Shown: positions 4,145 through 21,644 of the stretch, piece after piece
Layout of the letters: every line of letters begins with the position of its first letter
Numbering within the stretch: the stretch's first letter is position 1
Assembly (NCBI GenBank): GCA_028823885.1
Contig: JAPPFK010000013.1
Coordinates: forward strand, 1 to 39,350
Source of the DNA: Rhodospirillales bacterium
Lineage (GTDB): Bacteria; Pseudomonadota; Alphaproteobacteria; Rhodospirillales; UBA2165
Direction of reading: 5' to 3'
Length of the DNA: 39,350 nucleotides
Notes under the pieces: model-generated
Told to the model about the DNA's origin: nothing
Database searches by the model: none
The model's input: the letters and a program-made list of their open reading frames with translations, nothing else
Program-made: the position numbers and the translations under genes

Positions 4145-5023
4145 CTACCGCGGTAGCGGCCGAGTTGCGGAAATGAACCGGTATGTGAATAGGCCTTCCG
4201 ACAATCCCTCGGCGTAGGCGACCGATGCGTCCATGAACTCCTGGAAGGCGGGATGGGTCTCGCGGAGCTGCGGATTCAGGAACGAAACCGACAAAAAGCC
4301 CCGCCGGATCCGGTCCGTCGACGGCAGCGCTTCGCTGGTGAGATCCTGCTCCTCGATCGCGGTGAAGCCCGCTTCCTCGACCATCGCGAACACATCGGGC
4401 CACGACTCCATGGCGGGCAGGCGCCAGTTGCGCTCCACCGCGGCGATGAGAGCGGCATGCCGTTCCGAACTCGGCCCATTTTCCTTCAGCAGCTCCGCTT
4501 CGAGGACCTGCCAGCGCCCTCCCGGCTTGAGAACCCGGTAGACGCCCCGCAGATAAGCGGGCTTGTCGGCGGCGTAACAGAAGGATTCGTGGTTCAGGAC
4601 CGCATCGAAACCGGCGTCCGGGAACGGCAGGTCCATGAAGTCCCCGTGCCGGAATTCCACCAGATGGCCGACGCCGCGCTCCTGCGCCTTCCGCGCCGCC
4701 ACGGCAACATGCGGCTCGCAGTTCGTCAAACCGGTGACCCTCACGCCATGGGTTTCGGCCAGGAAGATCGCCGTGCCGCCCACGCCGCAGCCGGCGTCGA
4801 GCACATGCTCGCCCGGTCCGAGGCGGCACCCTTGAACCAGGGTGCGGTTGGCGCGGTCGAGGCCTTCGGCGTTGGTCCGGGTTTCCGGCCCCCAAAGTCC
4901 CCGGTGAATCGACAGATGCTCCGGGTTCTTGGTCAACACGAGCTCGGTCAGGCCCGCATAGAGATCGGATACCGGCCTCTCAGCTTCCGTTCGACCGGAC
5001 GAAGGCGTTCCGCCGGGCCCCAT
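4145..5023 (-). CDS. Class I SAM-dependent methyltransferase (copy 1)
   Basis: Motif I [17 protein letters not shown], motif [20 protein letters not shown]; highly similar to copy 2 at 5183-6055. Confidence 0.85.
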   Translation of the reverse strand: [292 protein letters not shown]

Positions 5024-5182: not shown

Positions 5183-6055
5183 ATGAGCCACGGCCAAGGA
5201 GATTGGTCCGAAGGAACGGAAGAGGAGAGGCCGGTCTCCGATCTTTACGCCGCGCTGACGGATCTCATGTCGATGGAGGGGTCCGAACGGCTGTCCATAC
5301 ATCGCGGCCTTTGGGGGCCGGATACCACGACGGACGAAGAAGCCCTGGACCGCGCCAAGCGCACCCTGGTTCAAGGGTGCCGCCTCGGCCCGGGCAAGCA
5401 TGTGCTCGACGCCGGCTGCGGCGTGGGCGGCACGGCGATCTTCCTGGCCGAAACCCATGGCGTACGGGTCACCGGCCTGACGAACTGTGAGCCGCAAGTC
5501 GCCGTGGCGGCGCGGAAGGCGCGCGAGCGCGGCGTCGGCCATCTGGTGGAGTTCAAGTTCGGAGACTTCATGGACCTGCCGTTCCCGGACGCCGCTTTCG
5601 ATATCGTGCTGAACCACGAGTCCCTCTGTTATGCCGTCGACAAGCCCGCTTATCTGCGGGGCGTCTACCGCGTTCTCAAGCCGGGAGGGCGCTGGCGGTC
5701 CCTCGACGCGGACCTGGCGAACCGGACCGAGCCTCTGACGGAACGGCTGGACGCGCTGCTCGCCGCCCTGGAGTGGAACTGGCGCCTGCCTCCCTACCGG
5801 GCGTGGCGCGATGTGCTGTCCATGGCCGAGGAAGCGGGCTTCACCGGGGTCGAGGCGCAGGATCTCACCAGCGAAGCGCTGCCGTCGACCGACCGGATCC
5901 GGCGGCGGTACTCGTTGTTTTCGTTTCTGAATCCGCGAATTCGCGACATGAATCCCGCTTTCCAGGAAGCCATGGATGGATCGGTCTGCTTCGCCCAGGG
6001 ATTGTCGGAAGGCCTGTTCAAGTACCGGCTCATTTCCGCCACGCGCCCCATATGA
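5183..6055 (+). CDS. Class I SAM-dependent methyltransferase (copy 2)
   Basis: [48 protein letters not shown]; diverges from copy 1 across a ~160 bp spacer. Confidence 0.85.
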   Translation: [290 protein letters not shown]

Positions 6056-18016: not shown

Positions 18017-18176
18017 GGCGGTTTTATAGCAGGCGCGGTTTCCCGCGTACGCGCGAGTTACGAGTTATCCCCGTGTTCCTTGCGATTCACAGGGGGTGCG
18101 GTTTCGGCCGCCGCTCCAAAATTACCCGAATCGTCATGCCCCGCCGATAGCGCGGGGCATCCAGGACAAAAAAATC

Positions 18177-18263
18177 TCACCACAGAGACACAGAGGACAC
18201 AGAGTTCACAGAGAAGGAATGGTTAACTCCTCACTGCCTCACCGTCTCTGTGGTTCAAGAATT
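18177..18263. repeat. Short non-coding member of the ACCACAGAG inverted-repeat family (solo, right end truncated)
   Basis: TCACCACAGAGACACAGAGGACACAGAGTTCACAGAGAAGGAATGGTTAACTCCTCACTGCCTCACCGTCTCTGTGGTTCAAGAATTG: both halves match the flanks of the GxxExxY gene at 21044-21546 with the coding part missing. Confidence 0.75.
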
Positions 18264-18298
18264 GAAAATCCGGCCCCCCGGACCTGCGCCGGGGTATA

Positions 18299-18447
18299 AC
18301 GCACTCCTTTTAGGGCACACTCCAGCCGTCATGCCCGTGCTTGACACGGGCATCCACGCCTTGCGGGACAGCGGCACACGTGGATGGCCGGGTCTAGCGC
18401 CCGGCCATGACGCACTCCTTTTAGGGCACACTCCAGCCGTCATGCCC
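18299..18447 (+). repeat. Direct repeat pair, period 111 bp, ACGCACTCCTTTTAGGGCACACTCCAGCCGTCATGCCC
   Basis: Identical ~38-bp units at 18299-18336 and 18410-18447. Confidence 0.9.
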
Positions 18448-18472
18448 CGCCTCCGTGCGGGGCATCCAGGAT

Positions 18473-18552
18473 ATTCACCACAGAGAACACCGAGGACACG
18501 GAGTATCTACACTCGAATCCGCTCCGTGGTCTCTGTGTACTCTGTGGTAAAT
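18473..18552. repeat. Second short non-coding member of the ACCACAGAG inverted-repeat family
   Basis: ATTCACCACAGAGAACACCGAGGACACGGAG versus reverse complement of right arm ATTTACCACAGAGTACACAGAGACCACGGAG. Confidence 0.8.
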
Positions 18553-19849: not shown

Positions 19850-21043
19850 ATGCCGCCTGCCGACGGCCAGGCCGCGCCCCAAGGAAGCGGCGCGCCCACC
19901 AGCACAAGTCCGCCCGAAGGGGCCGATGCGGCATTGGTTCTTTCCGACGGCACGGTGTTCTGGGGAACCGGCCTGGGGGCCGAAACCTCCAACGTCGGCG
20001 AGGTGTGCTTCAACACCTCGATCACCGGCTATCAGGAAATCCTCACCGATCCCTCCTACGCCGGGCAGATCATCACCTTCACCTTCCCCCACATCGGCAA
20101 CGTGGGCGCCAACCCGGAAGACATCGAGACGGCGACCCCGGCGGCCCGGGGCTGCGTGCTCCGCGCCGGCATCACCGAACCCGCCAACTTCCGGGCGACC
20201 CGTCATCTGGACGAGTGGCTCAGGTCCCACGGCCTCCCCGGCATCGCCGGGATCGACACGCGGGCGCTGACCCGCAAAATCCGGGGCTCGGGCTTCATCA
20301 ACGGCACGGTGGTGAACGGCGGAAATATCGACGTGGCGGCGGCGCTTGCCGAAGCGCAGGCCTGGCCCGGCCTCGACGGCATGGACCTCGCCAGGACCGT
20401 CACCTGCGGCCAGACCTACCGGTGGGAGGAGAGCACCTGGGCGCTGGGCCGGGGCTACGGCGTGCTCGACAAGCCCAGGCATCACGTGGTCGCCGTCGAT
20501 TTCGGCGCCAAGCGCAACATCCTCCGCTGTCTCGCCGCCGCCGGGTGCCGCGTCACCGTGGTGCCGGCGACGGCCACCGCCGAGGATGTATTGGGCCACG
20601 AGCCGGACGGGGTGTTCCTCTCCAACGGCCCGGGCGATCCGGCGGCCACCGGCGAATACGCCGTGCCGATGATCCGGCAGGTGGTCGCGAGCGGCACGCC
20701 GGTGTTCGGCATCTGCCTCGGCCACCAGATGCTGGCGCTTTCATTGGGATGCCGAACGGAGAAAATGCATCACGGCCACCGGGGCGCCAATCACCCGGTG
20801 AAGGATTTGGAGACCGGGAGCGTCGAGATCACCAGCCAGAACCACGGCTTCGTGGTGGTGCGGGACTCCCTCCCGGCGGGCGTGGTCGAGACCCACACGT
20901 CCCTGTTCGACGGCACCCTCGAAGGCATCCGCCTCGACGGCAGGCCCGTGTTCAGCGTCCAGCATCACCCGGAAGCCTCGCCGGGCCCCCAGGACAGCCA
21001 CCACCTCTTCGCCCGCTTCGTGAAGTTCATGGAGGGTGACTAG
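19850..21043 (+). CDS. carA: Carbamoyl-phosphate synthase small subunit
   Basis: LVLSDGTVFWGTGLGA, GIDTRALTRKIR, LSNGPGDPAA, GTPVFGICLGHQMLALSLG, SQNHGFVV, VQHHPEASPGPQD. Confidence 0.98.
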   Translation: MPPADGQAAPQGSGAPTSTSPPEGADAALVLSDGTVFWGTGLGAETSNVGEVCFNTSITGYQEILTDPSYAGQIITFTFPHIGNVGANPEDIETATPAARGCVLRAGITEPANFRATRHLDEWLRSHGLPGIAGIDTRALTRKIRGSGFINGTVVNGGNIDVAAALAEAQAWPGLDGMDLARTVTCGQTYRWEESTWALGRGYGVLDKPRHHVVAVDFGAKRNILRCLAAAGCRVTVVPATATAEDVLGHEPDGVFLSNGPGDPAATGEYAVPMIRQVVASGTPVFGICLGHQMLALSLGCRTEKMHHGHRGANHPVKDLETGSVEITSQNHGFVVVRDSLPAGVVETHTSLFDGTLEGIRLDGRPVFSVQHHPEASPGPQDSHHLFARFVKFMEGD

Positions 21044-21546
21044 TTCACCACGGAGCACACAGAGATCACAAAATTGAACCACAGAGGCAGTGAGACACAG
21101 AGAAATGGTTGAGGAGAATGACCCTCTCACCCAAACGGTCATTGGCCTTGCGATTGAGGTCCACAAACAGTTGGGGCCTGGTCTTCTGGAATCCGCTTAT
21201 GAAGCATGTCTGTGCTACGAATTGAGTGAAAAAGGGATTTCCTTCGACCGGCAGGTCGACCTGCCGGTTAGTTATAAGTCGATCAAAATCGGAGCCGGTT
21301 ACCGATTGGATATCGTTGTCGAGAACAAGTTGATCATTGAACTGAAAACTGTCGAAAGGATTCTGCCGGTCCACGAATCTCAGCTTTTGACGTATTTGAA
21401 GCTTAGCGGAATCCGGACCGGCCTTATCTTGAATTTCAACTCAGCCGTCCTGAAGGATGGTATTCGGCGGTTGGTGAATTAATGAACCCTTCTCATTGCC
21501 TCATTGCCTCTGTGGTTCAAAAATCCTCTGTGTTCTCGGTGGTGAA
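21044..21546. mobile_element. Inverted-repeat-bounded element carrying a GxxExxY gene, inserted between carA and carB (mobility inferred)
   Basis: Left arm TTCACCACGGAGCACACAGAG...TTGAACCACAGAGGCAGTGAG...GAGAA begins right after the carA stop. Reverse complement of right arm is TTCACCACCGAGAACACAGAG...TTGAACCACAGAGGCAATGAG...GAGAA. Arms of ~60 bp bracket one ORF. Confidence 0.65.
21105..21482 (+). CDS. GxxExxY protein, PD-(D/E)XK nuclease-like fold
   Basis: AIEVHKQLGPGLLESAYEACLCYEL (GxxExxY motif), YRLDIVVENKLIIELKTVE (D-x8-ELK), HESQLLTYLKLSG (Q-x3-YL), TGLILNFN. Confidence 0.93.
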   Translation: MVEENDPLTQTVIGLAIEVHKQLGPGLLESAYEACLCYELSEKGISFDRQVDLPVSYKSIKIGAGYRLDIVVENKLIIELKTVERILPVHESQLLTYLKLSGIRTGLILNFNSAVLKDGIRRLVN

Positions 21547-21644
21547 CAATCAATCCCGGGCTATATCAATCGATGTCCGTTTTTTGCCTATCGCCCGGAA
21601 TCGCCGGGAATCGCCGGGTTGGAATCCGGTTCTAGTGGAATCTG

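Follow-up and report, generated by a model that had tools for sequence, protein, structure and literature searches.

Why should two short hairpins without a gene, lying between dnaG and an acetyltransferase-like open reading frame (ORF), resemble the flanks of a small gene at the carA-carB junction? The window (the whole stretch of DNA analysed, 39,350 nucleotides) carries rpoD, dnaG, the GNAT acetyltransferase-like ORF, a YqeY gene, carA and carB. A reading made from the sequence only had placed the hairpins, here called A and B, near dnaG, and both are found where it put them (Table 1). The carA-carB junction holds a cassette (21043-21547) in which a GxxExxY gene sits within two nested inverted repeats.

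Table 1. Hairpins, cassette parts and neighbouring repeats in the window
Feature	Position	Strand	Description	Basis
ORF-less element A	18177..18263	.	imperfect hairpin: left arm four CACAGAG words, tip AAGGAATGGTTAACTCC, right arm CTCACTGCCTCACCGTCTCTGTGGTTCAAGAA	at least 40 genomic copies, 34-copy alignment, right arm homologous to cassette right arm
ORF-less element B	18473..18552	.	80-bp near-palindrome, second family, ends like cassette outer arms	about 22 copies, folding z -7.0/-6.2
Cassette outer left arm (B-like)	21043..21064	+		91% complementary to 21526-21547
Cassette inner left arm	21074..21104	+		87% complementary to 21490-21520
GxxExxY gene	21105..21482	+	125 aa, PDDEXK_3 / TIGR04256, between carA and carB	profile matches, AlphaFold pLDDT 93.3, Foldseek to PD-(D/E)XK proteins
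Cassette inner right arm	21490..21520	-	specific relative of A's right arm	complementarity and alignment
Cassette outer right arm (B-like)	21526..21547	-		complementarity and alignment
CGTC-tagged REP-like hairpin	18132..18166	.	separate repeat family, directly left of A	fits CGTC REP description in PMC3733652
CGTC-tagged REP-like hairpin	18438..18471	.	directly left of B	fits CGTC REP description in PMC3733652

Hairpins A and B and the carA-carB cassette

A and B are two dispersed hairpin families. In the genome of the window (3.63 Mb in 208 contigs), 79 candidates gave 40 scored full-length or near full-length matches to A, and B has about 22 copies, both numbers being lower bounds (at least 40 and at least about 22). 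The concern that no further copies exist is thus removed, and at least 60 gene-less copies accompany one gene-bearing copy, the GxxExxY gene of the cassette being single-copy in this genome. The pattern ACCACAGAGN{0,30}CACAGAG matches the genome 83 times and its reversal not at all, and ACCACNRAGN{1,2}CACNRAG occurs 112 times against once for the reversed pattern. Within the window, exact CACAGAG is present 13 times where 2.9 are expected, a number reached in none of 100 shuffles.

Folding bears out the description of B as an inverted repeat, since this near-palindrome folds far better than shuffled sequences (z -7.0 and -6.2 for the two strands); the folding of A is moderate (z -2.9 and -3.5). 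Among 34 aligned copies of A the number of words per arm varies and the tip GGAATGRTTAACTC is kept in nearly all, and in the alignments of both families the elements end in TTCACCAC or TTGAACCAC. Of the 22 B copies, ten have an A copy within about 400 bp, far above random placement (examples are C46, C36, C8, C199 and C208), and this clustering suggests a composite unit or nested insertion.

The idea that A is the cassette minus its coding sequence stands for the right half and fails for the left. The right half of A shares 29 of 36 positions with the cassette's inner right arm, derived CAGTGAG-like words included, for a score of 42; the highest score is 30 among the other 98 GxxExxY cassettes and 23 among 1000 shuffles, which rules out low-complexity CACAGAG periodicity as the sole cause of the likeness. 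The left arm of A scores 33 against the inner left arm, but other loci reach 56, so there is no specificity on this side. B had been said to share the terminal words of the cassette, and it does match the cassette, but in the outer arms, through two 21-bp stretches with three mismatches each. Since the right half of A resembles the inner right arm and the ends of B resemble the outer arms, these alignments raise the possibility that in the cassette a B-like palindrome surrounds a unit related to A.

The protein of the window matches TIGR04256 with 152.8 bits (cut-off 35) and PDDEXK_3 (PF13366) with 147.8 bits (cut-off 22). The G, E and Y of the motif are conserved in 99 of 99 sequences, as is D69, with E79 in 98 and K81 in 97 of the 99. 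On its structural model the protein has a PD-(D/E)XK nuclease fold and is a predicted nuclease. The best Foldseek matches in the PDB, which are weak (best E 1.2e-3) and of modest score, all belong to this fold: the Cas4-like SSO0001, lambda exonuclease, Hjc, the homing nuclease I-Bth0305I and the R2 endonuclease domain. One informative pair of genes, from G379 and G747, gives a dN/dS of 0.10.

Arrays and states of GxxExxY loci in other genomes

To place the cassette among its relatives, 80 named loci were fetched together with a protein alignment from proteobacteria, planctomycetes, chloroflexi, bacteroidetes, acidobacteria, cyanobacteria and methanogens; they were picked by a conserved peptide and are thus biased to proteins like that of the window, and the genomes are at species level, many of them metagenome assemblies. 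Inverted arrays of 8-9 nt words (C[AG]CNNAG) enclose the gene in 58 of 77 GxxExxY loci, which come from many phyla. When the upstream flank is aligned with the reverse complement of the downstream flank, these 58 exceed the 99th percentile of the scores from 487 shifted controls, a threshold exceeded by 0.4% of the controls (median 40 against 18). The density of C[AG]CNNAG within 50 bp of the gene is 27 per kb on the upstream plus strand and 32 per kb on the downstream minus strand, compared with a background of about 2 per kb beyond 300 bp. Where an array mixes several words, the mixture is mirrored in the opposite arm, for example in L137, L138 and L146.

In the Alphaproteobacteria an array adjoins nearly all strong GxxExxY genes, with words other than those of the window: CACGAAG, CACGGAG (as in L065), CACCAAG, CGCCAAG, CGCAAAG (as in L068) and CACGGATG. 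In a sample of 385 genomes of the class, which includes four of the window's order and no close relatives, 16 have at least five arrays, 16 have a strong GxxExxY gene and nine have both (odds ratio 66, Fisher p 2.5e-10, uncorrected for relatedness). Some of the GxxExxY genomes are missed by the array count because their words are of the CGC or CACAGATG type. No strong GxxExxY turned up in seven array-rich genomes of the sample. G186 (16 array matches) and G306 (49) are array-rich with no GxxExxY match at all, and there either the gene has been lost or another driver is at work. The possibility that the gene is phage or plasmid cargo was rejected, as it is found in none of 50,697 phage records, in only eight of 72,556 plasmid records and on one viral contig.

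The words differ between loci and agree within a locus, and their type tracks the protein. Word-profile similarity rises from 0.10 at 35-45% protein identity to 0.73 above 70% (Mantel r 0.25, 0/2000 permutations, unchanged after GC correction), and the same test gives no signal at 0.8-2.5 kb from the gene. The relation holds for cross-phylum pairs alone (r 0.21, 0/2000 permutations), pairs matched for protein identity have, in most bins, words about as similar between phyla as within them, and the dominant word is common to the nearest protein neighbour in 45 of 94 loci, where 18.4 +/- 4.2 are expected. Since word similarity follows protein identity across phyla, word and gene travel together, although this may reflect joint descent rather than recognition.

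Comparison of congeners at orthologous sites shows the gene-bearing and gene-less forms to be alternative states of a single element that is mobile or exchangeable. In genus g85, an ORF lies between CACCACAAAGGCACGAAGGCACAAAG and its mirror copy in G367; G385 has, in the corresponding place, a 62-bp hairpin that lacks the ORF, with almost identical arms around a 9-nt tip; and the site in G081 is almost array-free, with at most a decayed right arm. This upholds the proposal that full and ORF-less forms make up one family. The cassette of genus g109 is present in G379, G747, G105 and G746 and there is a clean empty site in G749; in genus g91 a palindrome and gene lie between trpF and trpB in G087 and neither is present in G200 or G370. 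Insertion polymorphism, which the sequence-only reading had thought worth looking for, is thus seen among congeners at species level in three genera, in members other than A and B. Within G105 the two arms of the insertion are alike at 38 of 40 positions, whereas the arms of G105 and G379 are alike at 32-35 of 41 (6-9 of 41 differ), as would follow from re-copying of one arm from the other or from selection that keeps the two together.

At trpE-trpG, a junction that is often tight in the Burkholderiales examined, the cassette is present in L170 and L091. In L170 (Ramlibacter) a 25-bp imperfect direct repeat (21/25) surrounds it at 4900-4940 and 5410-5445, duplicating the trpE end and the trpG start. 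A target-site duplication of constant length was rejected as a general property: three of 72 loci exceed the 95% control level, duplications of a few bp being below the resolution of the comparison.

CACAGAG-type cassettes are found at carA-carB in several alphaproteobacterial families (L001, L076, L087 and L093), which could be either a single old insertion or a repeated target. Flavobacterium seoulense and Gelidibacter pelagius (L142 and L152) share one position of the GxxExxY gene, following the gene for methionine aminopeptidase. In G727 (L230) a GxxExxY gene without words is in the trpE-trpG junction with its start at the trpE end, and is possibly a domesticated copy.

In the open-licence PMC literature, no description of an array link was found for GxxExxY or four-helix-bundle genes, no mention of GxxExxY, PF13366 or TIGR04256 was found to concern repeats, and the six 15-mer sequences searched matched in an unrelated context only. 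GxxExxY genes and their mirror-image word arrays look like small mobile elements of an undescribed class.

What might move the arrays

We lean towards the view that a small mobile hairpin element, which in its full form carries the GxxExxY nuclease gene, is represented in A and B by copies without the gene, and that the nuclease cuts the cognate arrays, which are then copied by repair. The full form, about 500 bp long, would consist of the small PD-(D/E)XK nuclease gene flanked by a pair of inverted arrays with words of 8-9 nt. The nuclease would recognise the cognate array in duplex, cruciform or single-strand hairpin form and make a cut or nick there, and repair would copy the element into a new intergenic site or, alternatively, interconvert ORF-less hairpins and full cassettes through their shared arms. 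The arms would be kept alike by copying one from the other. A and B would then rely on the cassette at carA-carB or on a relative since lost. That the nuclease drives mobility is what we infer, and the main rival is that the arrays spread without it.

This rival gains from the genes for the four-helix-bundle protein (S23/IVP, PF05635), which were first searched as a control. PF05635 was not found in the window's genome, and C[AG]CNNAG words are absent around the PF05635 genes examined, but these genes have inverted repeats of their own. They are present at all 17 alphaproteobacterial genes (median score 44 against 18), where the overall period is 7 nt (77% match at lag 7 against 30% in shuffled sequence), and at eight plasmid copies, mostly cyanobacterial, that have inverted arrays of GGGAACA, GGGTRTA or AAAAGCT, one with a period of 8. 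Altogether, inverted repeats flank 25 of 25 PF05635 genes examined (L273-L292 and L296-L303), nearly all with a 7-nt period, and the words vary by locus (GGCTTAR, GGCGAAT, GTATAGG, GGGAACA, AAAAGCT). On the cyanobacterial plasmids, two of these genes with arrays (L299 and L300) are next to cas4, and L300 is also near cas6. Inverted arrays of this type therefore also enclose genes that do not encode nucleases, and an array is not necessarily a nuclease product; array-making may be independent of the nuclease, and a broader class of element is suggested.

The array would then be the element and the gene a passenger, the arrays owing their origin and spread to the host (through slippage, hairpin-primed synthesis or some trans-acting enzyme) and small ORFs having settled between the arms. 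Although the architecture common to two unrelated proteins and the array-rich genomes without GxxExxY both point this way, we think it rather unlikely, because word type follows the GxxExxY protein and not the host phylum, and because the difference between the 8-9 nt words of GxxExxY and the 7-nt words of PF05635 implies that the protein matters to the word.

A role of the arms in RNA is less probable again. The insert would resemble an intervening sequence in operon messages, its stem being excised or insulated by an enzyme such as RNase III, with A and B as remnants. The GxxExxY ORF is oriented with both its neighbours in 54 cases and against both in two (sign test p 4e-14), which makes its expression from operon messages probable; the stem formed by B is strong; and there is a precedent in the S23 intervening sequence of Coxiella, the complementary ends of which are cut by RNase III (PMC4990558). 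However, such a role accounts for tolerance of insertion and not for spread. Compensatory changes are almost absent among the 34 A copies, with two-sided change in only one of 16 pairs and thus no support for selection on pairing, and a known RNA family was rejected when an Rfam search with the element gave no match.

It is very improbable that the arrays are immobile and simply serve the GxxExxY protein as binding sites in gene control or self-recognition: word and protein do co-vary, as this would require, but presence and absence at orthologous sites among congeners speaks against it, and similarity to defence proteins is marginal, the best match in PADLOC being only Cas4 with an E of 0.005, short of an anti-phage assignment. 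Chance sharing of words by periodic, low-complexity sequence is hardly credible, short and periodic though the words are, and was rejected on the reversed-pattern counts, the 58 of 77 loci above shifted controls, the word density, the copies of B, and the right-arm score of 42 with its shuffle comparison.

Comparison with known systems

The CGTC-tagged REPs, for which no transposase is known (PMC3733652), adjoin A, B and many A copies elsewhere in the genome, yet form a separate family of different sequence and structure; a further such hairpin lies in the window at about 18327-18354. Like the MITEs NEMIS/CREE and ERIC, the elements described here include gene-less hairpins of 60-130 bp dispersed between genes. 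They are MITE-like in having many gene-less copies with terminal inverted repeats akin to those of a gene-bearing form, a same-site pair with and without the ORF and, for members other than A and B, presence/absence polymorphism at species level within genera. They differ in that no insertion-sequence parent or consistent target-site duplication was found, the candidate parent having a nuclease fold and not that of a DDE transposase. The PD-(D/E)XK homing endonucleases also place a small nuclease fold inside a mobile element, but here there is no intron or intein and the copies are multiple and non-allelic.

A similar layout is found in the intervening sequences of 23S rRNA, such as the 428-nt S23 element of Coxiella, in which an insert of about 430 nt holds a small ORF between complementary ends and is called selfish (PMC4990558). 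PF05635 genes outside rRNA also have inverted word arrays. The window's cassette is not a member of this group, since its protein is unrelated, its word length is different and its site is between protein genes (carA-carB). Intergenic heptamer repeats of unknown origin, partly in inverted pairs in Xanthomonas, have been described there and in Nostoc and Beggiatoaceae (PMC4692102, PMC4679880). These were published as simple repeats without a linked gene, whereas the 7-nt arrays seen here flank PF05635 genes, and we conjecture that the heptamers are gene-less forms of the PF05635 kind.

More broadly, and tentatively, since we place it a little short of probable, inverted short-word arrays could constitute a class of selfish hairpin general to prokaryotes, in which two or more unrelated proteins reside: the GxxExxY PD-(D/E)XK nuclease with 8-9 nt words and the S23/IVP four-helix bundle with 7-nt words. 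The words would drift freely but be re-copied between arms, so that recognition would be of period and structure with a co-evolving sequence, and the orphan heptamers of cyanobacteria and xanthomonads would be the second kind without its gene. Two unexplained sets of repeats, the CACAGAG-like words and the heptamers, would then be tied to specific small genes, and a very widespread protein family known only by its motif would gain a functional context.

A further comparable system is REPIN/RAYT, in which REP doublets are associated with an IS200-like tyrosine transposase and form REPtrons (PMC3116915). Both systems have many short intergenic palindromes and a rare gene flanked by the same palindromes, with sequence classes that go with the protein and gene-less copies that are non-autonomous (PMC3116915). 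In contrast to REPIN/RAYT, the protein here has the PD-(D/E)XK fold (PDDEXK_3) and not that of an HUH Y1 tyrosine transposase. The arms are arrays of 8-9 nt words and not one GTAG-tagged hairpin, neither a GTAG nor a GGAG tag being seen at the hairpin foot in the alignments of A and B, and the word varies widely between loci. If the preferred reading is correct, the GxxExxY elements would be a nuclease-linked counterpart to the REP/RAYT systems, and the variation of word with protein would supply many natural matched pairs of protein and site in which recognition is directly testable.
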